Made by a program: the position numbers and the translations under genes. A DNA stretch of 64,000 nt from Nitrospinota bacterium (GTDB lineage Bacteria > Nitrospinota_A > UBA7883 > JACRGQ01): positions 1-64,000 of the forward strand of contig JACRGR010000067.1 in assembly GCA_016212275.1 (NCBI GenBank). The letters are read 5' to 3'. How positions within the stretch are numbered: the stretch's first letter is position 1; each line of letters opens with the position of its first letter. Shown one piece after another: positions 5,008 to 18,434 of this stretch. The notes under the pieces were generated by a model. It made no database searches, was not told the origin of the DNA, and saw nothing but the letters and a program-made list of their open reading frames with translations.

Positions 5008-5077
5008 CCACGGATAGACACCGATAAACACGGATGATGGGGCACTGCAATCGGTGTCCATCCGTGTGCATCCGTGG
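5008..5077. repeat. Palindromic CCACGGAT/ATCCGTGG intergenic repeat
   Basis: A 70-bp element with ends CCACGGAT (5008-5015) and ATCCGTGG (5070-5077). Inside, CACCGAT pairs with ATCGGTG and ACACGGAT pairs with ATCCGTGT, so the unit can fold into one long imperfect hairpin. It sits between the membrane-protein gene and the pilin cluster. Similar cacggat/ccgtgg dispersed repeats occur in many environmental bacterial genomes; function is unknown. Confidence 0.7.
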
Positions 5078-5148
5078 GTGAATTCATACCCCGCTATAGC
5101 AAAAGTCTTGAATGTTTTTGTCATAATGTGGCACAATATAAAATTGCA

Positions 5149-5592
5149 ATGGGAGATATAAGGGGCAACCGCGGGTTCACCACCATCGAGTTGATCATCG
5201 TTATCGTACTGATGGGGATTTTAGCCGTCGCGGTCATACCCAAGATGAATGTGGACAGCACCGCCGCACCCGCCACCGCCGATCTGGTGGCTTCCGACAT
5301 CCTCTACACACAGATGGCCGCCATGAGCCAGCACGTCCGGATGTCCATCACCATGACTTCCGGCTCGGCGACGTATAACTATGCGGTCAATGCCACCACC
5401 GGGCTTGGCGAGGCCCGCAACCTCGCGGACATAAAATCAACCGCCTCGATAAGCGTAGGCCAGGTACTGACGTTCAACACGCTCGGCGAGCCGGAACTGA
5501 TCACCGCCCCCATAACAATCACCATAACCGACGGCACAACCACGAAATCGCTCACCGTCCAGCCGTACACCGGAAAGGTGACCATTTTATGA
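5149..5592 (+). CDS. Prepilin-like protein (GspH/FimT type), first gene of the pilin cluster
   Basis: A 147-residue class III signal protein. The leader MGDIRGNRG is followed by FTTIELIIVIVLMGILAV, with Glu at mature position 5 and a hydrophobic helix, so a prepilin peptidase should cut after Gly and methylate Phe. The C-terminal domain is short and beta-rich with a Thr-rich end, like minor pseudopilins. I start it at ATG 5149 because only this leaves a normal leader length; the open frame extends upstream to 5074. No Shine-Dalgarno precedes 5149, and a TATAAA hexamer (5137-5142) lies 6 nt before it. The stop overlaps the next gene's ATG (ATGA at 5589), suggesting translational coupling. Likely a minor subunit of the secretion or pilus apparatus encoded downstream. 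Confidence 0.75.
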   Translation: MGDIRGNRGFTTIELIIVIVLMGILAVAVIPKMNVDSTAAPATADLVASDILYTQMAAMSQHVRMSITMTSGSATYNYAVNATTGLGEARNLADIKSTASISVGQVLTFNTLGEPELITAPITITITDGTTTKSLTVQPYTGKVTIL

Positions 5593-6122
5593 AGAGCTTT
5601 TTTGGTAGGACAGGAAATTTTGCCTGTCTTGGTGCGCGCAAGCGCGAAAGCAAGGGGGACCTTAACAATGACAGACAGGATTGTCTGTCCCACCAAAACG
5701 GGCATGGACAAAAAGGGTTCACGCTCCTCGAACTGATCATGATCCTTGTGGTCATCGCCATTGTCCTGCCGCTCGCGCTCATGCCCTTCACGGAGTCCGT
5801 GAAAGGGATCGGCAATCCCACGCTCGCCACCAACATCGCCGCCGAAGCGCGAAGCGCCATGGAAATCGAGCTCGCCGCGGTGGACGCGGCATTCCCCGCC
5901 ACGGCCACATACACCAAACCGACGGTCACCAAAACCGTGCTCGACGTTAGCTATTCCACCACCATCTCAGGCCAAGTGGGAAACATGGCGGCGGGCACCA
6001 CCACGTTCACCCAGGCCGCCGGCGGGAACTATGTGATAGTCACCGTCACCACCACCGCGACCAAGGGGGGTAGCACCGCCGGAACCTACACCTTTAACGC
6101 GATCAAGGCGAAGAACTTTTAG
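5589..6122 (+). CDS. Prepilin-like protein with an abnormally long leader containing a palindromic repeat
   Basis: A 177-residue prepilin. The processing site QKG^FTLLE is at residues 41-48, followed by the hydrophobic helix IMILVVIAIVLPLALM and a Thr/Ala-rich beta domain. Leaders of this class usually have 5-25 residues; here it is 43. Residues about 5-37 are encoded by a 98-bp palindromic repeat (5601-5698) of the kind otherwise found between genes. The ATG overlaps the stop of the upstream pilin gene (ATGA), which supports this start; no in-frame ATG, GTG or TTG occurs between the repeat and the processing site. The ATG at 5704 is one base out of frame. Probably still a minor pseudopilin if the peptidase tolerates the leader; a damaged gene is the alternative. 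Confidence 0.7.
   Translation: MKSFFGRTGNFACLGARKRESKGDLNNDRQDCLSHQNGHGQKGFTLLELIMILVVIAIVLPLALMPFTESVKGIGNPTLATNIAAEARSAMEIELAAVDAAFPATATYTKPTVTKTVLDVSYSTTISGQVGNMAAGTTTFTQAAGGNYVIVTVTTTATKGGSTAGTYTFNAIKAKNF
5601..5698. repeat. Palindromic GACAGG/CCTGTC repeat inside a prepilin leader
   Basis: The outer arms TTTGGTaGGACAG (5601-5613) and CTGTCCcACCAAA (5685-5697) are inverted. Nested hairpins GACAGG...CCTGTC (5609-5628) and GACAG...CTGTC near 5670-5688 make a double stem-loop unit. The repeat is entirely within the open frame of the prepilin gene starting at 5589. Related units occur at 7908, 16916, 51203 and 60964. Confidence 0.8.
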
Positions 6123-6124
6123 CC

Positions 6125-6637
6125 ATGAAAAACGAAAAAGGTTTTACGCTTATCGAGATTATCATGGTAATTTCGATACTAGGCGTTCTATCCCTCATCT
6201 CCTTCGCGTTCCTCGGCAGGACCGCCGATACCTACCAGATGGCGAGTTCACAGGGCAAAATGAACGGCGAACTGTGGGTGGCCACTGAGCGGATGGTGCG
6301 TGAACTGCAATATACCAACGCCTCCGGCAACATTACCGTCCCCGCATTGGGCGGCACCGGCAGTACCCTTACCTTCACTAAACCGGCCTGCGCCATTTGC
6401 CAGGATACATCTACCGCAGTCTCTTATACATTAACCGGCACCCAAATCCTGCGCACCACCGCAAAGATGGCCAACCAGGTCGTGGCTGACGGCATTAGCG
6501 CGTTCACCGTTGCCCGGACGGCACAAAACGTTGTAACCATTAGCATTACCAAGGCCGACAGCTTCAGCAACAGCATGACGATGACCGAAAGCGTGTACCC
6601 GCATCCGTCGGCAAATCTGAGCGAAGACATTAAGTAG
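6125..6637 (+). CDS. Prepilin-like protein (PilW/GspJ type)
   Basis: A 170-residue prepilin with a compact leader MKNEKG and mature start FTLIEIIMVISILGVLSLISF, including Glu5. The segment after the helix (MNGELWVATERMVRELQ) resembles the start of the globular domain in PilW/GspJ-type minor pseudopilins. A CAIC pair near residue 89 could form a local disulfide after export. It begins 3 bp after the preceding stop and belongs to the same three-gene pilin run. No clear ribosome-binding site is visible, so translation is probably coupled to the upstream gene. Expected location is the inner-membrane pseudopilus tip or minor pilus complex. Confidence 0.75.
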   Translation: MKNEKGFTLIEIIMVISILGVLSLISFAFLGRTADTYQMASSQGKMNGELWVATERMVRELQYTNASGNITVPALGGTGSTLTFTKPACAICQDTSTAVSYTLTGTQILRTTAKMANQVVADGISAFTVARTAQNVVTISITKADSFSNSMTMTESVYPHPSANLSEDIK

Positions 6638-6683: not shown

Positions 6684-7847
6684 ATGAAGTTCACGGATCG
6701 AATAACTAACCAGAGAGGGGTAGCTTTGATCGCCGTCATCTTCATCCTCGTCGCTTTGGGCGGTCTTGGCGTGACCGTTTCGAAGCTCTCCCAAAACCAG
6801 GCAAAGCAGGCGTCCAGCGCTGTTGGCGTGCAGGATTCCTACTATGCCGCGCAAAGCGGGCTTGAATGGGCCTTCCAGCAGGTGACGGACAACACCGGCA
6901 CCGCGGGGTACACCGCGGCAACCGGCTATTCCGCGCTTGTGGGCAACCGCACTTTGCCGAACGGAGACACATTCACCATTGCTTACACCGCGCCAAATAT
7001 CTCTTCCACCGCGAAGAAAGGGAATGACGAACGCCAGCTGGTCTTGGCCAGCTTCGACACGCTCGTCCCGCAGGTTCCCGGTGGCGGGGGGGGCGGAGGG
7101 ACCGGGCCTAGCTCCACCTGTGCCACATCGCAAGGCGACGGGAAAGGGGTTGACCTCTTTACCCAGTATGTTGCCGCGGGAAACCGCATAGATGGCGTAA
7201 CCGGTGGGCAAAGCGGCATTACGCCGGACAATTTCTCGATACCCACCTTTCCTACCGCAACATATAATAACCAAACCTTCGGATCGACCACCTCGCTCAG
7301 CCCAAACACTCCGTCCGCAGATAATCCGGAGCTGTATTACGCCGACCTGCAGGTGAACAATAACGTGTCGCTTACCCTGAATGGACCGACCGGCGTGGGC
7401 AAGTACCTGACGGTGTATGTGAAGGGTGATTTCGACCTGAAGGGAAACTCCACCCTCAACATTAACGGAAACGTCCGGTTTGTTGTCGGCGTGAGTGGTA
7501 CGACCAAGGACATCAAGGTCAATGGCGCCACCGTCAACATTACCAACGGCGCGCTCTTCATGATGGCCTCCGGCGAATTCAAGGCGGAGAACAGCTTCAA
7601 GGTCAACTCCGGCGCCGGCTCGCTTTCGGATAACCTGCTGGTGATGACCCAGAAGGAAATAAAGTTCGAAAACAACGGTTCGGCCAAGGGCGGCTTCTAT
7701 TCCATGGATGAAGTGAAAATTGAAAACAACCCCACCATTACCGGCGCGATGGTCGGTAAAAGCAAGGTGGAGGCCGAGAATAACCCGACTATCACCTGGG
7801 ATAGCAACGCCGCTAAAAACGTCACCGGCAACATCAAGACCTGCTGA
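6684..7847 (+). CDS. PilX/GspK-like pseudopilin with C-terminal beta-helix-like domain (tandem copy 1)
   Basis: A 387-residue protein. The N-terminus NQRG^VALIAVIFILVALGGLGVTV is a prepilin-type helix without Glu5, as in PilX and GspK. DSYYAAQSGLEWA (about residues 52-64) is the conserved PilX N-terminal region. A glycine-rich linker (about 133-140) leads into repeated short beta-strands (LTVYVKGDFDL, STLNINGNVRF, GALFMMASGEFKAEN, KEIKFENNG), typical of the beta-helical DUF7305-like domain. Only two cysteines are present, one just after the linker and one as the final residue. AAGGGG precedes ATG 6684. A strong rho-independent terminator follows at 7865. I infer a surface or tip component assembled by the adjacent secretion/pilus machinery. 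Confidence 0.75.
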   Translation: MKFTDRITNQRGVALIAVIFILVALGGLGVTVSKLSQNQAKQASSAVGVQDSYYAAQSGLEWAFQQVTDNTGTAGYTAATGYSALVGNRTLPNGDTFTIAYTAPNISSTAKKGNDERQLVLASFDTLVPQVPGGGGGGGTGPSSTCATSQGDGKGVDLFTQYVAAGNRIDGVTGGQSGITPDNFSIPTFPTATYNNQTFGSTTSLSPNTPSADNPELYYADLQVNNNVSLTLNGPTGVGKYLTVYVKGDFDLKGNSTLNINGNVRFVVGVSGTTKDIKVNGATVNITNGALFMMASGEFKAENSFKVNSGAGSLSDNLLVMTQKEIKFENNGSAKGGFYSMDEVKIENNPTITGAMVGKSKVEAENNPTITWDSNAAKNVTGNIKTC

Positions 7848-7864
7848 CCTTTCAAGCTCTATAC

Positions 7865-7894
7865 GGGGATGGCGTTCACCGCCATCCCCTTTTT
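7865..7894 (+). terminator. Rho-independent terminator after tandem copy 1
   Basis: A perfect 10-bp stem GGGGATGGCG / CGCCATCCCC with a 5-nt loop is followed immediately by TTTTT, 18 bp after the upstream stop codon. The terminator after copy 2 has nearly the same stem. Confidence 0.85.
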
Positions 7895-7907
7895 CCTTCC
7901 CCTTTTC

Positions 7908-8009
7908 TTTGGTAGGTACAGGCACTTTTGCCTGTACATTAGCGAGGATTGCCAACCTTCTTGGGTGCTGACGCACCCAACGACAGGCAGGAGTGCCTGT
8001 CGCCACCAT
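7908..8009. repeat. Palindromic GGTAGG...ACAGGC / GCCTGT...CCACC repeat
   Basis: This intergenic unit opens with TTTGGTAGGTACAGGC and closes with GCCTGTCGCCACCA. Nested hairpins are GTACAGGC...GCCTGTAC, TTGGGTGC...GCACCCAA and GACAGGCA...TGCCTGTC. It has the same architecture as the repeat at 5601 and fills most of the 263-bp gap between tandem copies 1 and 2. Confidence 0.8.
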
Positions 8010-8110
8010 TCATGAATGCATCAGTGAAAAATCGGTCGCAAGGGAGTAGAATATTAATCAAGACCTGAAGGCAATTCGATCAACGTGGGTTCTTAACAAC
8101 GAGGTTTGCC

Positions 8111-9271
8111 ATGGACATCAGGCGGCACCTGAAAGGTCAAAAAGGCTTTGCGCTTCTCGCGGTGATCTTCATCCTCGTCGCCATGGCCGGCCTTGGCGTG
8201 ACCGTTTCGAAGCTTGTTCAAAACCAGGCACGGCAGGCATCCAGCGCGGTTGGCGTGCAGGATTCCTACTATGCCTCCCAGAGCGGGCTTGAATGGGCCG
8301 TGCAACAGGCTACGGACAACGGCTATACCGCGCCCTACTCGCAGATAGCGGGCGCACACACCTTGCCGAATGGCGATACCTTCACCATCGCTTACGACGC
8401 GTTGACCGACAAGCTCTCCTCAACGGCCAACAAGGGAAATGACCAGCGGATGCTGGTGCTTGCGGCATTTTCCACCATTCCGAGCGGTGGCGGCGGCGGA
8501 ACCGACCCGAACGAAAGTTGCTCCGTGGCGGCGGATGGCAACGTGACGGGAACGGATCTTTTTGCCACCCGCGTGGCTTCCGCCGATGAAATTGACGGCA
8601 GTATTCCGGGAAGCGCGGAAAACATTCACCCCAAGACGTTCTCCTCCATGCCCTCCTTTCCGGCAGGCGTGTCATATCCAAACCGTACTTACAGTGGCGG
8701 GACCACCTCGCTCACCAGTTCCACCCCCACCGTCAACAACCCCGAACTGTATTACAACGACCTGAAACTTGAGGACCACGGCACCATGAACGTCACCGGC
8801 CCCACCGGCGTGGGCAACTACCTGACGGTTTATGTGAAAGGGGATTTCAAAGTAAGGGACAGTTCCACGCTCAATGTCACTGGAAATGTGCGGTTCGTCG
8901 TTGGCACCAGCAGGAGGGACGACGAAAACGTCATAATGCAAGGCGCCACCGTGAACATCGCCACCGGCGGCAACCTGCTCCTCGTGGCTTCCGGCAGGTT
9001 CAAGGCGGAAAACAATTTCGCGGTGAATTCCGGCGCCGGCTCCAGCGCCAGCAACCTGCTCATCATGACGATGGGCGATATAAAATTCGAGAACAACGGC
9101 ACGATCAAAGGCGGCTTGTATTCACTGGATGATATTAAGATCGACAACAGCCCCACCATCACCGGCGCCATGGTCGCGGTGGACAAGATAGACAAAGAAC
9201 ATGCCAGTTCGGTCATCAACTACGACAACACCGCCGGACAAAGCGTTGTCAATAACATTAAGACCTGCTGA
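8111..9271 (+). CDS. PilX/GspK-like pseudopilin with C-terminal beta-helix-like domain (tandem copy 2)
   Basis: A 386-residue paralogue of the upstream gene. Leader QKG precedes FALLAVIFILVAMAGLGVTV, again without Glu5. The block around SSAVGVQDSYYASQSGLEWA is almost identical to copy 1, and the two genes share near-identical DNA there, pointing to recent duplication or gene conversion. The Gly-rich linker near residue 135 is followed by Cys, and the protein ends in KTC, so the two-cysteine pattern is kept. The C-terminal strands (YLTVYVKGDFKV, GNVRFVV, ASGRFKAENNF, GDIKFENNG) diverge moderately. GAGG lies 7 nt before ATG 8111. Its own terminator follows, so it may form a separate transcript from an upstream promoter that I could not identify. 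Confidence 0.75.
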   Translation: MDIRRHLKGQKGFALLAVIFILVAMAGLGVTVSKLVQNQARQASSAVGVQDSYYASQSGLEWAVQQATDNGYTAPYSQIAGAHTLPNGDTFTIAYDALTDKLSSTANKGNDQRMLVLAAFSTIPSGGGGGTDPNESCSVAADGNVTGTDLFATRVASADEIDGSIPGSAENIHPKTFSSMPSFPAGVSYPNRTYSGGTTSLTSSTPTVNNPELYYNDLKLEDHGTMNVTGPTGVGNYLTVYVKGDFKVRDSSTLNVTGNVRFVVGTSRRDDENVIMQGATVNIATGGNLLLVASGRFKAENNFAVNSGAGSSASNLLIMTMGDIKFENNGTIKGGLYSLDDIKIDNSPTITGAMVAVDKIDKEHASSVINYDNTAGQSVVNNIKTC

Positions 9272-9288
9272 CCCTCCCTTGAGTTTGG

Positions 9289-9321
9289 CCGGGATGGCGT
9301 TCTTCGCCATCCCGGTTCTTT
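9289..9321 (+). terminator. Rho-independent terminator after tandem copy 2
   Basis: An 11-bp stem CCGGGATGGCG / CGCCATCCCGG with a 5-nt loop is followed by TTCTTT. It lies 17 bp after the stop codon and shares the GGGATGGCG core with the terminator at 7865, consistent with duplication of gene plus terminator. Confidence 0.85.
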
Positions 9322-9412
9322 CTGCATCCCAATAATGGTAATATAAATACCAATGCGCCCATCCGGGCCAACAAAGAGTTTGAAGTTGTTGCCAATTATA
9401 CAAGGGGGGACA

Positions 9413-10543
9413 ATGAGGCATCCATTCTTCCTGAAAAAACGCCTGAACAACAAAGGCATCGTTTTCATTGCCATCCTTTTCATCCTTCTCGCGCTTGCCG
9501 CGCTCGGCATCGCCTACGTCAAGTTCACTACCAACGACCAGTCGTCGGCGGCCAAAGGGCTGGAAACGCAGGGAGCCTACTTCGCCGCCCAAAGCGGGGC
9601 CGAATGGGCCGTGCAACAGGCAAAGGACAACAACTACCAGACCCCGTACACGCAGATAACCACCCCGCCGCAACATGCGCTAAATAACGGCGAACAGTTC
9701 CTTCTGGCGTATGACCCTGCCAGCGACACACTCAGCGTCACCGGTAAAAAAGGGGGGGCCGAACGCGCCCTTACCGTTGCCCCTTTCACGCAGATGGTGG
9801 CGGGCGGCGGCCTGCCGAATACCCCCTGCCCCGTGGCGAACGGTCCCGCGGGCATCAGCTGGCTTTTCTCGCAATATGTCGCCTCCGCCGGAAAAAGCGT
9901 TACCGGCGTGGCCGGAACCACCGCCACTGGCATAACTCCCCAGGCGGTTGCCCTGCCCGCGTTCCCGCAAGGCACCTACAATAATTTAAAAGTGACTTCC
10001 GCCACCTCCCTCACCGGCACATCCCCCAACGCCAACACCCCCGCGCTGTACTACAAGGACATTACCGTCACCTCCGGCAACATCCTCACGCTACACGGCC
10101 CCACTGGCGTGGGCCACTACCTCACGCTGTATTTGGAGGGGGATTTGAAAGTGGAATCAAAAGCCGCCATCAGCATCACCGGCAATGTGCGTATAGTGGC
10201 GCAAAAGGACGTCAAGTTCTCCGACCAGTCCGGCGCCACTGTTGCCAGCGATGCCACCCTGCTCCTGATGGCCGGGAAGGACGTTTCCATCAAGCAAAAC
10301 GCGGGGATCAATTCCGGCGGGAATTCCTACAACATGCTCATACTGGCGAAAAAAGACATTAAAGTGGATTCAGGCTCCACCTACCGTGGCGGCCTTTTTG
10401 GCAATGCCGACGTGACCGTGGACCGCAACGCCACGGTGGCGGGGGCGATCGTCGCCGGAAAAGACGTTTCGGCGGCTGGATCGGAGATTCAGCACAACCC
10501 GGAAGCGGGAAAATCGGTGCTCGATTCCATCCCCGCCTGCTAG
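9413..10543 (+). CDS. PilX/GspK-like pseudopilin with C-terminal beta-helix-like domain (tandem copy 3)
   Basis: A 376-residue, more diverged member of the tandem family. It starts at ATG 9413 behind a GGGGGG ribosome-binding run; the open frame extends to 9353 without support. The N-terminal helix is KG^IVFIAILFILLALAALGIAYV, lacking Glu5. QGAYFAAQSGAEWAVQQA matches the PilX region of copies 1 and 2. The C-terminal half repeats beta-strand units (YLTLYLEGDLKVES, KDVKFSDQSG, KDIKVDSGSTYRGG). Two cysteines only: NTPC after the Gly-rich linker and the final residue. No terminator is visible before gspC, so this copy may be read through into the type II secretion operon. Confidence 0.75.
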   Translation: MRHPFFLKKRLNNKGIVFIAILFILLALAALGIAYVKFTTNDQSSAAKGLETQGAYFAAQSGAEWAVQQAKDNNYQTPYTQITTPPQHALNNGEQFLLAYDPASDTLSVTGKKGGAERALTVAPFTQMVAGGGLPNTPCPVANGPAGISWLFSQYVASAGKSVTGVAGTTATGITPQAVALPAFPQGTYNNLKVTSATSLTGTSPNANTPALYYKDITVTSGNILTLHGPTGVGHYLTLYLEGDLKVESKAAISITGNVRIVAQKDVKFSDQSGATVASDATLLLMAGKDVSIKQNAGINSGGNSYNMLILAKKDIKVDSGSTYRGGLFGNADVTVDRNATVAGAIVAGKDVSAAGSEIQHNPEAGKSVLDSIPAC

Positions 10544-10674
10544 CGGGCGCGGCCCGCCGCGAATGTCGCGTACAATCCCAATCAGAGGCTTGTCGCATTT
10601 CTCCGCGTTCCTGCCTCATTTCTTTCATTAAATAACCTGAAATTCCAAACACCTGTCCGTCAAACTAACTAGTG

Positions 10675-11562
10675 ATGAAATCCGCGATTTTATGGCCATT
10701 CAAGCAAGGCAAGGGTATCCTATTGTTAAACTTTGCGTTATTTTCAGGTCTCGCCTATTTCAGCCTTCTCTGGATAAGCCAGATATTTTCCGCCGCCACC
10801 CTGTCTGTCCCACCTTACACGCCACCAAAGCCCGATACCGCCGGCATGCAAATGCAAACACAGGCGGATTACTCCATACTCACCCGCAAGAACCTCTTTA
10901 ACCCGGGCGCCAGGTTTTCCCCGATGGCCACCGGGGAAATTGTCCCCTGCACCCTGCCGCTGAGACTGGTGGGGACGATAATCACGGAAAACAAAAAGAA
11001 CAATATCGCCATCATTGAAAACATCAACGACAAACAGCAAGACCTCTACCATATCAACGACCAGATAGCGGGGAGTGCCGTTATCGCGCAGGTGAGCCGG
11101 TTCGAGGTGATCCTGAACAACAACGGGCGACTGGAACGGCTGGCGATAGATTTCGGCGAGGGGGCGCTGGAGGCCATGCTCTCTTCACCCTCCCCCGCGA
11201 CGGGAAGGCCGGCAGGCGCCCAGGTGGCCATGCTCAACGAAGGTCAATACCTGATGGACCGGCGCTTTTTTGAATCGCAAAAGGCGAATATGAACGACAT
11301 GATGACTCAGATACGCGCCATCCCGAATATGGCCCCGGACGGCTCCATAAACGGGTTCCAGCTTTTCGAGATCGTGAAAGACAGCATGTACGACCGGATA
11401 GGACTCAAGAACCAGGATGTGCTCCAGCGCGTGAACGGCCAGCCGCTCAACTCGGTGGAAACAGGGCTGGACCTTTTCAACGCCTTAAAGAACGACAACC
11501 ACTTCGTCCTCGACGTCGTGCGGAACAAAGAACGGAAAACCATAAAAATCGACATTCAGTGA
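10675..11562 (+). CDS. gspC: Type II secretion inner-membrane protein GspC with PDZ domain
   Basis: A 295-residue protein with one N-terminal membrane helix (about residues 15-38), the periplasmic homology region (ILTRKNLFNPG, then LPLRLVGTII near 100) and a C-terminal PDZ domain (GFQLFEIVKDSMYDRIGLKNQDVLQRVNGQPL). GspC links the inner-membrane platform to the secretin GspD and helps choose substrates. The start could be GTG 10672 or ATG 10675; I chose ATG. It overlaps the gspD open frame by a few bases, though the preferred gspD start lies 8 bp downstream. First gene of the canonical gspC-N order. Confidence 0.85.
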   Translation: MKSAILWPFKQGKGILLLNFALFSGLAYFSLLWISQIFSAATLSVPPYTPPKPDTAGMQMQTQADYSILTRKNLFNPGARFSPMATGEIVPCTLPLRLVGTIITENKKNNIAIIENINDKQQDLYHINDQIAGSAVIAQVSRFEVILNNNGRLERLAIDFGEGALEAMLSSPSPATGRPAGAQVAMLNEGQYLMDRRFFESQKANMNDMMTQIRAIPNMAPDGSINGFQLFEIVKDSMYDRIGLKNQDVLQRVNGQPLNSVETGLDLFNALKNDNHFVLDVVRNKERKTIKIDIQ

Positions 11563-11570
11563 AGGGAACC

Positions 11571-13676
11571 ATGATTAAAAAACCTGCCCTGGCGCTTATC
11601 GCCACACTGCTCCTGTTCACCGCCTCCCCCGCCCGCTCCGCCGATGAAGGGACCATCTCGATGAACTTCGCGAACGCGGACATCACCATGGTGATCAAGT
11701 ACATCTCCGAAATGACCGGCAGGAACTTCGTGGTGAACGACAAAGTGCAGGGGAAAGTGACCATCCTTTCGCCCAAAAAGGTGACGCGCGACGAGGCGTA
11801 CAAGGTGTTCGAGTCCATACTCTCCGTGTACGGGTTTTCCGCCGTCCCCTCCGGCAACGTCGTCAAGATCGTTCCGGTGAACGACGCGCGCCAATTGGGC
11901 GGCACGATGGGCGCCCTGCTCACCGGAGAAATGCGCGACCAGATGATCACCCAGCTCATCCCGCTCAAGTTCGTAACCGCGGACAACATGGTGAACGCCC
12001 TGCGCCCGCTCATCCCGCCCACCAGCTACATCGCCTCGTACCAGCAATCGAACACGCTCATCATCGTGGACCTGGCCTCCAACCTCGAGAGGATCAACAC
12101 CATCATCGGCAAGCTGGACGTTGAGGGACGCGAGACCGGCATCACGGTGGCGCAATTGAAGCACGCTTCCGCACGCGACATCGCGGCGAAGATAACGAAC
12201 GTCACCGGGAAAGACCCGGCGCGGGGGGGCGCGGTGGACCCGAACGCGAACGTACTGCCGGACGACCGGCTGAACGCCATCATCATCGTGGGGAACGAAC
12301 TATACACCAACAAGGTGAAGAACATCATCGGGCAACTCGATATTGAGTCGCCGCCCGGCAGGCAGGAGATCAACGTGGTCTACCTGAGCAACGCGAACGC
12401 CGAAGACCTGGCGAAGGTGGTGAACCAGATACTCCAGGCGGAACAGAAAAAGACGCTCCAGGGGCCGCAGGCGCAGGAGGCGGTCTTCGTCACGGCGGAC
12501 AAGCCGACAAACGCCATCATCGTCACCGCGTCGCCGGAGCAATTCGTGAACGTCAAGCGCGTCATCGAGAAGCTGGACATCCCCCGCAGGCAAGTATTCG
12601 TTGAAGCGCTGATATTCGAGGTGCGCGAGGACAAGGCGAAAAAGTTCGGCGTCGAGTGGCGCACCACCTCCAACTTCAACCAAGGCGGCGTGCAGGGGAT
12701 CGGCGGAACGAACTTCGGCACCATCAACCAGGTGGCGGCGAACCCGATCACCGGCATGGCTGGCGCGGGAATGGTGGTGGGCGTGGTTGACGGCACGATA
12801 GACGTGGGAGGCACGCAGTACGCCAACGTGGGCGGCCTTATCTCCGCGCTCCAGACCGATACCGACGTGAACATCCTCTCCACCCCGAACATCCTGACCA
12901 CCGACAACGAGGAAGCCAAGATATTCGTGGGGCAAAACGTGCCGTTCCTGAAAAGCTCCGCCCAGACCACCGGGGGCACTCCGGTCGTGAATGTTGACCG
13001 GCAGGACATCGGCACCGTGATGAAGATCACGCCGCAGATAAACGAGAACAACCAGGTGCGCCTTAAAATTTACCAGGAAACATCGAGCATCAGCCCCACG
13101 CAACTCGACAAGGCGCAGGACATCATCACGTTCAAGCGCACCGCCGAGACCGTGGTGGTGGTGCGCGACAAGCAGAACATCATCATCGGCGGACTCATCA
13201 GCGAAAACCTGCAGGACGTGGAAAACAAGGTGCCGCTCCTCGGTTCCATCCCGCTTTTGGGCTGGCTGTTCAAGAGCAAATCCAAATCGGTGGTCAAAAC
13301 AAACCTGCTCATCTTCCTTACGCCGCACATCATCAACAATGTGGAAGACATGAAGCGGGTAACGGACTCGAAATTGGGAATGATGGATAAACTCAGCGGG
13401 CCGGAAATGAAAGAAAAAATAAAGGAACGCGCGCCCACACCCCCCGCCCCCGAACAAAAAAGCGAGGACAAGAAGCCGGAGATGGCCCAACCGCCCGCGC
13501 CGGAGCTTTCCGCCCCTGTTGAGAAACAACCGGAAATGGCGCCGCTCCCGGCGGAACCCGCTCCTCAAATCGAGCCGCCCCCGACGCCGCCGGCGAAACC
13601 GCAAAGCGGCGTTCCCCTGCCCGTCCGTCCGCGCAGTGTGAACGCCACGCAAAACGAGATAGTTCTCTTCAGGTAG
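11571..13676 (+). CDS. gspD: Type II secretion outer-membrane secretin GspD
   Basis: A 701-residue secretin that forms the outer-membrane channel. A signal peptide (about 1-23, ending PARSA) precedes the N0 domain (ISMNFANADITMVIKYISEM) and N1-N3 repeats (LIIVDLASNLERINTIIGKLD, AIIIVGNELYTNKVKNIIGQLD, AIIVTASPEQFVNVKRVIEKLD). The secretin core carries FVEALIFEVRED, VNILSTPNILTTDNEEAKIFVGQNVPF and VPLLGSIPLLGWLF. The tail after about residue 610 is Pro/Glu/Lys-rich, low-complexity and longer than usual. ATG 11571 is chosen because GAAGGGAACC precedes it; an in-frame ATG at 11559 would overlap gspC. Confidence 0.95.
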   Translation: MIKKPALALIATLLLFTASPARSADEGTISMNFANADITMVIKYISEMTGRNFVVNDKVQGKVTILSPKKVTRDEAYKVFESILSVYGFSAVPSGNVVKIVPVNDARQLGGTMGALLTGEMRDQMITQLIPLKFVTADNMVNALRPLIPPTSYIASYQQSNTLIIVDLASNLERINTIIGKLDVEGRETGITVAQLKHASARDIAAKITNVTGKDPARGGAVDPNANVLPDDRLNAIIIVGNELYTNKVKNIIGQLDIESPPGRQEINVVYLSNANAEDLAKVVNQILQAEQKKTLQGPQAQEAVFVTADKPTNAIIVTASPEQFVNVKRVIEKLDIPRRQVFVEALIFEVREDKAKKFGVEWRTTSNFNQGGVQGIGGTNFGTINQVAANPITGMAGAGMVVGVVDGTIDVGGTQYANVGGLISALQTDTDVNILSTPNILTTDNEEAKIFVGQNVPFLKSSAQTTGGTPVVNVDRQDIGTVMKITPQINENNQVRLKIYQETSSISPTQLDKAQDIITFKRTAETVVVVRDKQNIIIGGLISENLQDVENKVPLLGSIPLLGWLFKSKSKSVVKTNLLIFLTPHIINNVEDMKRVTDSKLGMMDKLSGPEMKEKIKERAPTPPAPEQKSEDKKPEMAQPPAPELSAPVEKQPEMAPLPAEPAPQIEPPPTPPAKPQSGVPLPVRPRSVNATQNEIVLFR

Positions 13677-13677
13677 C

Positions 13678-15246
13678 ATGAACGGACTGCGCGAACTGAG
13701 CGAAAAGCTGGAATACCGTTACACCGAGGCCGTGCCGCCCGTGGAAACCGCGGCGGAACTGGTGCGGCGCGTGCCGATAGCCTTCGCCCGCAAAAACGAG
13801 ATCGCCCCCGTGGCGGTGGAGGATGGGCGGCTCGTTGTGCTCACCTCGCGTCCGCTGGATCACCACGCCATCGCCGACTTGCGCGGGATGTTCGGCCTGC
13901 CCGTTTCCGTCACCGTGGCGGAACCGAAGGTGGTCACCGAGTTCATCAACCGCGCTTACGAGAACACGGCCGGTTCGGCGGAAGAGGTGCTGGGCGAAGT
14001 GGAACCGCAAAACCTCGAATCCATCGCCAGCGAACTGGAAGGGGCAACCGATATTCTCGATACGGACGAGGAAGCGCCCATCGTGCGCCTGCTGAATTCC
14101 ATGCTCCAACAGGCGATAAAGGAAAAGGCGAGCGACGTGCATATCGAAGTATTTTCCGATTCGCTCTCCGTGCGTATGCGGGTGGACGGCATTTTGTATT
14201 CCGTCCTCAAGCCGCCGCGGCGGATACACCCGCAACTTATTTCCCGCGTGAAGATCATGGCGGGAATGGACATCGCCGAAAAGCGGTTGCCGCAGGACGG
14301 GCGCATCTCCCTGCGCGCCGCCGGGCGCGAGATAGACGTGCGCGTTTCCACCATCCCCACCACGTTCGGCGAGCGGGTGGTCATGCGCCTGCTGGACAAA
14401 AGCCGGAACCTGCTCATGCTCGACCAGCTGGGCATGGACCCGGAGATGCTCAAGACGATCCGCCACGGCATCGAATTGCCGAACGGCATCATCCTCGTCA
14501 CCGGCCCCACCGGGAGCGGTAAAACGACCACGCTGTACGCCGCGCTGGCGCAGGTGGATACGGCGCGCAAAAACGTGATAACGGTCGAGGACCCGGTGGA
14601 GTACCAGATACGCGGCATCGGGCAGATGCAGGTGAACCCCGCCATCGGCCTGAACTTCGCCGACGGCCTGCGGTCCATCCTCCGGCAGGACCCGGACATC
14701 ATCATGATCGGCGAAATACGCGATCAGGAGACCGCGCGGATAGCGGTGCAGGCGTCGCTCACCGGGCACCTGGTCTTTTCCACGCTCCACACGAATGACA
14801 GCGCCGGAGCGCTCACCCGGCTGGTGGACATCGGCATCGAGCCGTTCCTCATCGCCTCGTCGCTCGTGGGGGTGCTGGCCCAGCGGTTGGTACGCACTCT
14901 ATGCCCGAAGTGCAAGCGGCTCTCCGCGATTGATCCGGAAGAGATAGCGCGGCTTGGCTCCGACGCACGCTCGGCGAACCTCCCCACCCGCCTGCACAAA
15001 GCCGCGGGGTGCGATGAGTGCATGAACTCCGGCTACCGGGGACGTAGCGGCATTTACGAATACCTGCAAGTAACGGATTCCATCCGGTCCCTCATCGTGA
15101 AAGGGGCCGACGCCAAGCGGATACGCCAACAAGGGGTGAGCGAGGGCATGAAAACCCTGCGTCAGGACGGACTGATGAGGGCCGCGCGCGGCCAAACCTC
15201 GCTGGACGAGGTGCTCCGCGTGACCGAAGAAGGCGAGGCGGTGTGA
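13678..15246 (+). CDS. gspE: Type II secretion assembly ATPase GspE
   Basis: A 522-residue cytoplasmic secretion ATPase that powers pseudopilus assembly. Walker A GPTGSGKTT is at 276-284, the Asp box region VEDPVEYQ at 303-310, Walker B IIMIGEIRD at 341-349 and the His box HLVFSTLHTND at 364-374. The zinc-binding CM domain has two CxxC pairs (Cys409/412 and Cys445/448), as in GspE and PilB. The N1E-like region occupies roughly the first 100 residues. The ATG lies 1 base after the gspD stop. The stop overlaps the start region of gspF (GTGATG). Confidence 0.95.
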   Translation: MNGLRELSEKLEYRYTEAVPPVETAAELVRRVPIAFARKNEIAPVAVEDGRLVVLTSRPLDHHAIADLRGMFGLPVSVTVAEPKVVTEFINRAYENTAGSAEEVLGEVEPQNLESIASELEGATDILDTDEEAPIVRLLNSMLQQAIKEKASDVHIEVFSDSLSVRMRVDGILYSVLKPPRRIHPQLISRVKIMAGMDIAEKRLPQDGRISLRAAGREIDVRVSTIPTTFGERVVMRLLDKSRNLLMLDQLGMDPEMLKTIRHGIELPNGIILVTGPTGSGKTTTLYAALAQVDTARKNVITVEDPVEYQIRGIGQMQVNPAIGLNFADGLRSILRQDPDIIMIGEIRDQETARIAVQASLTGHLVFSTLHTNDSAGALTRLVDIGIEPFLIASSLVGVLAQRLVRTLCPKCKRLSAIDPEEIARLGSDARSANLPTRLHKAAGCDECMNSGYRGRSGIYEYLQVTDSIRSLIVKGADAKRIRQQGVSEGMKTLRQDGLMRAARGQTSLDEVLRVTEEGEAV

Positions 15247-16460
15247 TGCTGTACGCGTTTGAAGGCGTGGATAGCGCGGGAAAGCCGGTAAGCGGCTCGA
15301 TAGACGCCGCGGGCGCGCGCGAGGCGCGCACCAAACTGCGGTCCGGCAATATCTTCGTCACGAGCCTCGCGGAAGAAGAAAAAGCCGAGAAGGCCGGGCG
15401 CCGGCTTTTTCCGTTCCTTGCCGGGCGTGTTTCCCAAAAGGAGATGACTTCATTCATGCGGCAGGTGGCTTCGCTCGTCTCAGCGGGCATACCGCTGATG
15501 GAAACGCTGGAGGCCGCCCAGAAGCAGTGCGAATCGGCGCACCTGAAGAAGGTGCTAAACGAGCTGAAGAACAATGTGCGGCAGGGGGAAACGCTGGCGG
15601 ACGCCATGCAAAAGGCCTCGGCCCAATTCGACCCGCTCACCGTGGCTATGGTGCGGGCGGGAGAGACCGGCGGGCATTTGGCCGACGTGCTGAACCAGGT
15701 GGCGGACCTGAAGGAGAACACCCTGCGCCGCGACAACGCCCTGCAAAGCGCGATGATATATCCGGTGGTCATGGCGGTCATCGGCATGGGGGTCATCATC
15801 TTCCTGCTGGGGTATGTGGTGCCGAAGATCACGGTCATCTTCGAGGATATGGGGCACACGCTCCCGCTGGCGACAAAGATACTCATTTTCGTCACTGGCA
15901 TTATCGTGGACTACTGGTTCGTGCTTGGCCTCCTGTTGGTGGGGGCGCTCACAGGGGCGGGCCGCTACATTAAAACGGAAAAAGGGAAAGCGAATCTCGA
16001 CCGCCTGCTCCTCCGTCCGCCGGTGGTGGGGCCCCTGCTACGCGCGGCCATCCTTGCCCGGTGGAGCCACGCCGCTTCGGCGCTTTTGCAGTCCGGCGTG
16101 CCGCTTTTGAAAACACTGCACCTTACCGCCGGTATCGCGCAGAATACGGTGTACGCCGAGGCCATCGAAAAGGCCGCCGCGCAAATACGCGAGGGCGCGG
16201 GCATCGCCGAATCGCTGGCCCCTTCCGCCCTCTTCCCGCCCGTGGCGCTCCAGATGGTGGCGGCGGGGGAAAAAAGCGGCCAATCGGCAAAACTGCTGAT
16301 GCAGGTGGCGCGCGACCAGGGGGCGGAACTGGAAAACCGCATCACGGTTCTCATGTCGCTCGTACAGCCCGCGTTGATCATTGTCATGGGGCTTATTGTC
16401 GGGTTTATAGTAATGGCGATACTTCTGCCGATCTTCGAGATCAGCCAACTTATAGGATGA
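15246..16460 (+). CDS. gspF: Type II secretion inner-membrane platform protein GspF
   Basis: A 404-residue polytopic protein with two repeated GspF/PilC domains. The first starts around FMRQVASLVSAGIPLMETLE and the second around WSHAASALLQSGVPLLKTL. Predicted membrane helices lie near residues 170-195, 215-237 and 372-400. It anchors the GspE ATPase and acts as the rotor-like platform for pseudopilin insertion. ATG 15246 overlaps the last base of the gspE stop; GTG 15243 is an alternative. Length and order are normal for the family. Confidence 0.95.
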   Translation: MLYAFEGVDSAGKPVSGSIDAAGAREARTKLRSGNIFVTSLAEEEKAEKAGRRLFPFLAGRVSQKEMTSFMRQVASLVSAGIPLMETLEAAQKQCESAHLKKVLNELKNNVRQGETLADAMQKASAQFDPLTVAMVRAGETGGHLADVLNQVADLKENTLRRDNALQSAMIYPVVMAVIGMGVIIFLLGYVVPKITVIFEDMGHTLPLATKILIFVTGIIVDYWFVLGLLLVGALTGAGRYIKTEKGKANLDRLLLRPPVVGPLLRAAILARWSHAASALLQSGVPLLKTLHLTAGIAQNTVYAEAIEKAAAQIREGAGIAESLAPSALFPPVALQMVAAGEKSGQSAKLLMQVARDQGAELENRITVLMSLVQPALIIVMGLIVGFIVMAILLPIFEISQLIG

Positions 16461-16473
16461 AAGGAGGCGCGTG

Positions 16474-16905
16474 ATGATTAGGAAAAACGAACGGGGTTTT
16501 ACGTTGATAGAAATAATGGTGGTGGTGGTGATATTGGCCCTATTGGCCGGCATCATCATCCCCAAGATCGTAAGCAGGCCGGAAGAGGCGCGCAGGGCCA
16601 AGGCCGCTATCCAGATCAAGGAAATGGAGGCCGCGCTCAGCCTCTTCAAGATCGACAACGGGTTCTACCCCTCCACTGAACAGGGGCTGGAAGCGCTGGT
16701 CACGAAACCGGCTTCCGGCGAAATACCGAAACACTGGAAAGAAGACGGCTACCTGAAAAAGGCGCCGAAAGACCCGTGGGACAGGGAATATGTGTACTTA
16801 AGCCCCGGCGAGCATGGCGACTTCGACCTGATCTCGTACGGGCCGGACGGTGAAGAAGGCGGCGAGGGAAGAAATGCCGACATCGAAAGCTGGAACATTG
16901 AATAA
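16474..16905 (+). CDS. gspG: Major pseudopilin GspG
   Basis: A 143-residue major pseudopilin. Leader MIRKNERG precedes FTLIEIMVVVVILALLAGIIIPKIV, including Glu5. The C-terminal domain shows the GspG signature: DNGFYPSTEQGLEALV, then LKKAPKDPWDREYVYLSPGEHGDFDLISYGPDG, which in known GspG proteins forms a calcium site with Asp residues in this loop. A strong GGAGG lies 6 nt before ATG 16474. The 3' end overlaps the likely gspH start at 16874 by about 30 bp. Confidence 0.95.
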   Translation: MIRKNERGFTLIEIMVVVVILALLAGIIIPKIVSRPEEARRAKAAIQIKEMEAALSLFKIDNGFYPSTEQGLEALVTKPASGEIPKHWKEDGYLKKAPKDPWDREYVYLSPGEHGDFDLISYGPDGEEGGEGRNADIESWNIE

Positions 16906-17473
16906 CCACTCTTACGGTGGGACAGGCGGTCTTGCCTGTGCTTGCCGCCATAGCCGGCAAGCACAGGAGGGGTTCACGCTCACCGAGGTGATCGTGGTGG
17001 TGTTCATCATCAGCCTGTTCGCCGCGTTCACCATCCCGCGGCTGGCGGACGTGGGAGAACTGAAGCTCAACAGGACCGCCGCGCACATCGGGCGCACCAT
17101 CACCTATCTCTACTCCGAGGCGGTGGCCCACCATCAGGTGGTGCGCCTGACCTTCGACCTTGCCAGCGGCAAATACTACCCCGCATCATTAAGCGCCAAG
17201 GGGGAATTCGAGCCGACCCGGTTCCCGCTCTTCGCCTCTGGCAAGATTAGCGAGGGCATTACCGTCAAACGGTTTGTGACAATGTTCGGCGGCTCCTTTT
17301 CCGGCACACAAGCGTATGTGCATCTTTTGCCGGAAGGGTTCGCCGAAAAGGCGCTCATTATTCTGGACGACGGCCACGGGCGGACGGTATCCCTCTTGGT
17401 GGATCCGCTCACGGGCCGGGTGAAAACCGAACGCGGGGAAGCGCATATCGAATTCGCGGAGCAGGGAGCATGA
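16874..17473 (+). CDS. gspH: Minor pseudopilin GspH with a repeat-derived leader extension
   Basis: A GspH-type minor pseudopilin. The processing site is EG^FTLTEVIVVVFIISLFAAFTI, Glu5 present, followed by a GspH/FimT beta domain (HIGRTITYLYSEAVAHHQVVRLTFDL). The leader is unusual: 33 residues from ATG 16874 (preceded by GAGGGAAG), or 25 from a TTG overlapping the gspG stop. Roughly 17 of these residues are encoded by a palindromic GACAGG/CCTGT repeat at 16916-16967, so the repeat is part of the gene. An upstream ATG at 16850 also keeps the frame. It overlaps gspI by 4 bp (ATGA). Confidence 0.85.
   Translation: MPTSKAGTLNNHSYGGTGGLACACRHSRQAQEGFTLTEVIVVVFIISLFAAFTIPRLADVGELKLNRTAAHIGRTITYLYSEAVAHHQVVRLTFDLASGKYYPASLSAKGEFEPTRFPLFASGKISEGITVKRFVTMFGGSFSGTQAYVHLLPEGFAEKALIILDDGHGRTVSLLVDPLTGRVKTERGEAHIEFAEQGA
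16916..16967. repeat. Palindromic GACAGG/CCTGT repeat inside the gspH leader
   Basis: GGTGGGACAGGC begins the unit, ACAGGC...GCCTGT forms a first hairpin, and CTGTGCTTGCCG (16936-16947) pairs perfectly with CGGCAAGCACAG (16955-16966) around a 7-nt loop. It belongs to the same family as the repeats at 5601 and 7908, and lies between the start region and the prepilin cleavage site of gspH. Confidence 0.8.
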
Positions 17474-17820
17474 AGGCAAACGACGGGTTCACGCTGATCG
17501 AGGTGGCGGTGAGTTTGGCCATCATCTCCATCTCGCTCGTAACGCTCCTGGCGGCCTTCAACCGCGCCTACGCCGCCTCCGCCGGAAACGCGGTGCTTAC
17601 CAATGCCACCATGCTGGCGCAGGAAAAACTCGCTTCGGCCACGATTGAGGAAACAGCGGCTGAAGAACCAAAATGGGAAGAGGATGTGCGCTTTCCGCGT
17701 TACCGGTTCAAGAAAACGGTGGAACAGACGCCGTTCCGGGATGTGACCAAGGTGTCGCTGGCGGTGGAATATGACAAGAAACCGGCAACCCGCATGGAAA
17801 CCTACCTGATAAAGCCATGA
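17470..17820 (+). CDS. gspI: Minor pseudopilin GspI
   Basis: A 116-residue minor pseudopilin with leader MKANDG and mature start FTLIEVAVSLAIISISLVTLL. The segment NATMLAQEKLASA is the conserved GspI region in which the alpha-helix passes into the small C-terminal domain. GspI is the core of the GspI-J-K tip complex that starts pseudopilus assembly. ATGA overlaps link it to gspH and gspJ on either side, so the three genes are translationally coupled. Confidence 0.9.
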   Translation: MKANDGFTLIEVAVSLAIISISLVTLLAAFNRAYAASAGNAVLTNATMLAQEKLASATIEETAAEEPKWEEDVRFPRYRFKKTVEQTPFRDVTKVSLAVEYDKKPATRMETYLIKP

Positions 17821-18434
17821 AAACCATACGAACAACGCATGGGTTCACGCTGATCGAAATACTGGTGGCGGTGTTCATTTTGGGCATCATCTTCAGCTTC
17901 ATTTTCGGCGCGCTCACCTCGTCCCTCGCCTCGGCGAAGGAGGCCACCGCGCGGATGGACATCGGGCATACCGGACGGTTCATAGCGGGAAAAATGGCGA
18001 GCGACATCGCCTCCGCCAGTTTGTTGCCGATGAGCGGCAAAGGCCGTTTGTGGGGCCGCCATTTCATGAAAAACGGCAAGCGGCGCGACGAAATTCATTT
18101 CACCGCCTTTTCGCGGACCTATTTCACGGGCCGGCCTCAAATAGATCAATCCGAGATCGGCTACTATTTCCGCATCGCCAAAAACGGCGAAGACGCCCTT
18201 ATGCGGCGCGAGGCGGACGTGATCGAGCGCCCCGTGGACCAAGGGGGCGAATCGCTGGAAATATCCCCCGCAGTTGAAGAACTCGCCATCCGCTACCAAC
18301 TGGACGACAAATGGGTGGACGAATGGGACTCGGAATCCGTGCAGGTACTCCCGAAAGCCGTTTCGGTGGAATGCACTCTCGCCGACGGCAAGCACAAATA
18401 TCTGTTCACCGCGATAGCGAGGCCCGCAATATGA
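17817..18434 (+). CDS. gspJ: Minor pseudopilin GspJ
   Basis: A 205-residue pseudopilin with leader MKTIRTTHG and mature start FTLIEILVAVFILGIIFSFIF, Glu5 present. The conserved GspJ region after the helix (ARMDIGHTGRFIAGKMASDIASA) and later DEIHFTAFSRTYFTG are visible. It partners GspI and GspK in the pseudopilus tip. Length fits the family. It overlaps both gspI and gspK by 4 bp. Confidence 0.9.
   Translation: MKTIRTTHGFTLIEILVAVFILGIIFSFIFGALTSSLASAKEATARMDIGHTGRFIAGKMASDIASASLLPMSGKGRLWGRHFMKNGKRRDEIHFTAFSRTYFTGRPQIDQSEIGYYFRIAKNGEDALMRREADVIERPVDQGGESLEISPAVEELAIRYQLDDKWVDEWDSESVQVLPKAVSVECTLADGKHKYLFTAIARPAI

Follow-up and report, generated by a model that had tools for sequence, protein, structure and literature searches.

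Introduction

REPs are usually described as extragenic. The GTAG REP dimers (REPINs) and their RAYTs are the closest described system, sharing with the elements reported here a GTRG foot, a short hairpin, an arrangement in inverted pairs and tens of dispersed copies (PMC3733652; PMC3116915); GTRG and GTGG variants of the GTAG foot have been described (PMC3733652). As here, GTAG repeats flank RAYT genes, and intragenic examples have been reported (Di Nocera 2013, PMC3733652; Bertels and Rainey 2011, PMC3116915), although many of those at N termini were judged to be extragenic and to appear otherwise through wrongly assigned starts (PMC3733652). The family described here differs in that it was seen in one Nitrospinales family and that the first hairpin of its unit is followed by another, which is variable. 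Its intragenic copies lie in leaders predicted to be removed by a peptidase, whereas those on record are noteworthy for lying in DNA repair and other proteins.

Two further systems bear comparison. Rickettsia palindromic elements (RPEs) are, like the elements here, mobile palindromes found in frame in host proteins (PMC10969869; PMC3733652), but the RPEs that resemble REPs bear a CGTC tag and no transposase dedicated to them is known, while our element is GTRG-tagged and RAYT-associated. The long-leader prepilins (type IVb and some type IVa) likewise have an unusually long hydrophilic leader (PMC10191384); in the case reported here, by contrast, a repeat that inserted in a minor prepilin makes the leader long, and the orthologs in relatives have short ones.

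The sequence analysed (the window) is a 64,000-nucleotide stretch from a Nitrospinota bacterium, of which the study genome is a single MAG, 83% complete and 2.19 Mb in size; the relatives compared with it belong to the same family and none is congeneric. We conclude that, very probably, a REPIN inserted in frame in the leader of a prepilin gene that kept its ancestral ATG, that a single REP independently entered the leader of the pseudopilin gene at the GspH position, and that both mature proteins should be unchanged. A partial search of the literature found neither a report of REPs in prepilin leaders nor a description of this RAYT-associated Nitrospinales REP family.

Results and discussion

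A REPIN lies in frame in the leader of a prepilin gene

The first case lies in a cluster of prepilin genes:

5149..5592, + strand: upstream prepilin gene with a leader of 9 residues; the likely ribosome-binding site of the gene that follows lies in the stretch for its conserved PYTGKVT tail
5572..5581, + strand: putative Shine-Dalgarno-like GGAAAGGTGA, within the upstream gene, 7 nt 5' of ATG 5589, similar in relatives
5589..6122, + strand: prepilin gene with REPIN, 177 aa; residues 40-60 score above the N_methyl cut-off
5589..5717, + strand: its 43-residue leader, net charge +4, QKG then FTLLE
5600..5698, + strand: REPIN, an inverted pair of REP units within the reading frame (sequence and covariance model)
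5602..5650, + strand: left REP unit (covariance model, 50.1 bits)
5648..5696, - strand: right REP unit (covariance model, 43.9 bits)
6125..6637, + strand: third prepilin, ordinary short leader (MKNEKG)

The initial annotation had described a 98-bp inverted repeat of intergenic type, translated as residues 5-37 of the prepilin. The repeat and its in-frame reading hold and the element can now be identified as a RAYT-associated REPIN, but direct reading of its boundaries, TTTTGGTAGGACAGG...CTGTCCCACCAAAA, gives a length of 99 bp and a span of codons 4/5-37. Two other statements, that a 43-residue leader precedes QKG^FTLLE and that the start overlaps the upstream stop (ATGA), were borne out: the first 43 codons end in ...NGHGQKG^FTLLE, and the upstream TGA occupies 5590-5592. 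The leader contains 8 K/R and 4 D/E.

The REPIN consists of a 49-nt unit present twice in inverted orientation, each copy with a GGTRG foot, a GACAG..CTGTC hairpin and a second hairpin. Its arms form one long hairpin, with an RNA fold of -47.7 kcal/mol compared with -33.7 +/- 3.8 for shuffled sequences (z -3.67). Neither stem has a further match within the window with up to 3 mismatches allowed (expected 0.00), so the structure is not a product of chance; copies related to it occur elsewhere in the genome. A scan of the genome contigs with the prepilin as query gave no matches.

Another palindromic repeat (CCACGGAT..ACACGGATG) is found 5' of the first prepilin, at 5010-5085 of the window. On the other side of the cluster, at 6684-10543, three DUF7305 genes stand in tandem, and the first two are separated by a second REPIN:

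7909..8009, + strand: REPIN, intergenic, between tandem DUF7305 genes

The repeat belongs to a dispersed, RAYT-associated family

Searched with a covariance model of the unit, the 2.19-Mb genome gave 61 matches at E<=1, of which 38 reach E<=0.01. With the same model, nine of ten other genomes of the family gave 2-85 matches and the tenth none; outside the family there was a single weak match in each of two genomes. The GGTRG foot is present in 19/19 aligned units, together with the GACAG..CTGTC hairpin and, in most, the second, variable hairpin. In the first stem 95.2% of cells are paired, compared with 24-47% in slid controls, and a single pair shows five double changes, a result drawn from 19 units and one covarying pair. 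Inverted doublets of units occur on C48, C26, C56 and C54. Tens of dispersed copies, hairpin, GTRG foot, inverted doublets and flanking of RAYT genes are the features of a GTAG-type REP/REPIN family; the CGTC tag and lack of a transposase that define the Rickettsia elements are not those of this family, which has a GTRG foot and flanks RAYTs. An Rfam search returned nothing relevant.

The Y1_Tnp proteins of the relatives, 160-177 aa long, match NCBIfam NF047646 (REP-associated tyrosine transposase), those of L141, L131 and L148 above the cut-off and that of L132 just below it. REP units lie on both sides of five RAYT genes in three relatives (two in L131, and those in L132, L138 and L141), with 3-5 units per gene inside 300 bp where 0.01-0.04 would be expected; a single unit accompanies the RAYT of L133. 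The G001 and G007 RAYTs lack flanking REP units, and no model match flanks those of L135, L136, L146, L148, L149 and L150. The only RAYT found in the study genome (L112; G000 C10:24025-24512, - strand), which was detected with a protein query after the PF01797 search, has a single frameshift that splits it and four flanking REP units.

The PF01797 search of the same genome matched only a degenerate Y1_Tnp-like protein of 122 aa, which we rejected as a RAYT since by eye it has no HUH pair and no tyrosine at the expected place. This conserved protein of about 122 aa (L043:6142-6510, - strand), encoded near a bactofilin-like gene in the study genome, has counterparts in L137, L140, L142, L144 and L147, and is perhaps a domesticated transposase domain.

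Orthologs in relatives share the start and have short leaders

In six relatives of the same family the ortholog lies directly 3' of the same upstream gene and its start overlaps the stop of that gene (ATGA or GTGA). The leaders of these orthologs have 5-12 residues and are free of the repeat. The PYTGKVT-type tail of the upstream gene is kept in all six, and in most of them it contains a Shine-Dalgarno-like stretch. The closest homologue, L212 (the G004 contig), has VK-QKGFTLIE at the place of MK-[38 residues]-QKGFTLLE in the window, and this correspondence identifies the long leader as an in-frame insertion and not a misread start.

A single REP unit in a second leader

About 11 kb from the first, a second REP-bearing leader, absent from the initial annotation, is found among the type II secretion genes:

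10672..18434, + strand: type II secretion genes gspC, D, E, F, G, H-position, I, J
16471..16905, + strand: gspG, major pseudopilin (TIGR01710, 181.8 bits, cut-off 88.85)
16898..17473, + strand: GspH-position minor pseudopilin, putative TTG start over the gspG stop (TTGAATAA, same in L212)
16898..16972, + strand: its leader, LNNHSYGGTGGLACACRHSRQAQEG, 25 residues (6 in L212)
16914..16962, + strand: single REP unit, in frame within this leader (covariance model, 37.1 bits, E 1.5e-4)

The gene is named from its operon position alone, its score against the GspH equivalog TIGR01708 being 24 bits with a cut-off of 80. At this locus L212 has the leader L(TTG)NKKNG and the window L(TTG)NNHSY[REP]..QEG. 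The overlap with the gspG stop points to TTG as the probable start; in-frame starts further upstream (ATG 16874 and GTG 16850) both lie within gspG, and there is no in-frame ATG, GTG or TTG between the REP unit and the cleavage site. Both REP-bearing genes have the type IV prepilin signature (a leader-final G, then F, a hydrophobic stretch and E5) and score above the N_methyl (PF07963) cut-off, and a prepilin peptidase gene (PF01478) is present in the genome.

Could the hairpins have been recruited for regulation?

The two REPs begin 7 and about 10 nt past the upstream stops. In E. coli, ribosomes reportedly stall at REPs that lie within 15 nt of a stop (Liang 2015, cited in PMC12306157), and both of ours fall inside that range. 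The initial annotation had raised regulation of translation by the hairpins. It might be that they tune translation of the upstream gene, of the minor pseudopilin or of both, and were retained for this reason, a reading to which the strong folds at the REP-bearing leaders and the occurrence of two cases in one genome would lend weight. We nevertheless regard it as unlikely, since the same junctions exist in relatives without REPs, so that the REP is not needed there, and the E. coli REP sequences differ from these. A broader version, in which REPs of packed pilin and secretion operons land repeatedly in cleaved prepilin leaders and their hairpins there determine in what proportions the minor pseudopilins are made, seems to us equally doubtful.

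Where translation of the prepilin starts

The fate of most REPs near N termini in several other species, which were judged extragenic (PMC3733652), raises the question of whether the leader REPIN might be untranslated, with translation beginning at an in-frame codon outside the standard set, for example CTG 5685. Inspection of the sequence shows no ATG, GTG or TTG in that frame from the end of the REPIN to the cleavage site, and the conserved overlapping start and the Shine-Dalgarno-like site both lie upstream of the element; we consider an untranslated REPIN very unlikely, and from the sequence the wrong-start explanation of the leader REPs is unlikely.

The same region contains an ATG at 5704, close to the cleavage site but out of frame and followed by a stop after 10 codons. 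It is preceded by nothing that clearly resembles a Shine-Dalgarno sequence, and its use would require an extra base: ATGGACAAAAAGGG stands immediately 5' of the cleavage site, and one more A would give MDKKGFTLLE. The gene could on this basis be broken, its true start (MDKKG-) one base out of frame and the long open reading frame a coincidence, but this is still less probable. The stretch after the REPIN, CAAAAAGG, is the identical string in the identical frame in L212, which reads it as QKG after its own overlapping start, and no missing base is therefore required. Furthermore, the relatives show MNQKG or MNQRG in that frame, all those bearing the ortholog have the overlapping start, and the mature part is intact over 134 codons. 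The initial annotation had taken the long leader to be genuine, which agrees with the overlapping starts and short, repeat-free leaders of the six relatives; a conserved downstream start accompanied by a frameshift, the finding that it named as contrary evidence, was sought in the relatives and not encountered, CAAAAAGG being in frame as in L212.

Finally, assemblers can be misled by dispersed repeats, but an artefact of the MAG assembly is hardly credible here, given that the flanking gene order is that of L212/G004, the reading frame is preserved, the leader copy of the REPIN is unique in sequence and the second case lies at a different junction.

Origin and consequences of the insertions

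In-frame insertion into the two leaders thus remains the preferred reading. The REPIN would be a non-autonomous mobile palindrome, presumably moved by a RAYT, that entered ahead of the conserved QKG^F site, no earlier than about codon 2, and added 38 codons relative to the nearest homologue. Given the frameshift in the sole RAYT found in the study genome, the family may no longer be mobile there. We infer that ribosomes still initiate at the ancestral ATG, the one that overlaps the upstream stop, and read through the REPIN. The REP-encoded residues are hydrophilic, net positive and stop-free, and should remain cytoplasmic with the rest of the leader; the prepilin peptidase should then remove the long leader and leave the mature protein unchanged. 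The single REP unit would have entered the GspH-position leader independently. Processing might still be affected, in that a leader of 43 residues is far above the family norm and could be cleaved poorly, and a strong hairpin near the start could reduce expression.

How often such insertions arise can be gauged from the 27 sites with a unit at E<=0.01. Two of the 27, both of them prepilin leaders, are convincingly intragenic, a call made in one incomplete genome by a codon-score heuristic with inspection (a gene without a better downstream start). Other apparently intragenic REPs, at C26 11352, C20 301, C56 5104 and C4 12830, were set aside as apparent N-terminal over-extensions with a possible downstream start. 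REP-bearing leaders were absent from the 75 prepilins examined in six relatives, genomes that differ widely in their number of REPs. If insertions are assumed to be spread across noncoding DNA, about 0.05 REP sites are expected in 14 leaders, with P(>=2) about 1e-3 and P(>=1) about 0.05. The recurrence in leaders is only suggestive because the first case was preselected and the second alone is a fresh observation.

The distribution suggests that a removable leader is among the few positions in a packed operon where an insert is harmless. Selection has most likely purged REPs from the mature parts of genes in gap-free operons, while a cleaved leader would tolerate one; in an operon without intergenic space it would be a rare place for a REP to persist. 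The two insertions offer a clean natural example of an intragenic mobile repeat that would be costless to the mature protein, REP-lengthened leaders provide a simple test of the class III leader length tolerated by prepilin peptidase, and the work adds a RAYT-associated REP family in Nitrospinales.

One further gene adjoining a REPIN was observed in the study genome, on C56 (G000; L044, about 5200-5260). It is a SurA-like gene with the signal peptide VSLWLFLTFFTPAYA, located just 3' of the REPIN, and its apparent start is a GTG within a different dispersed repeat (of the CCACAGAGRCACGGAGGCAC type).
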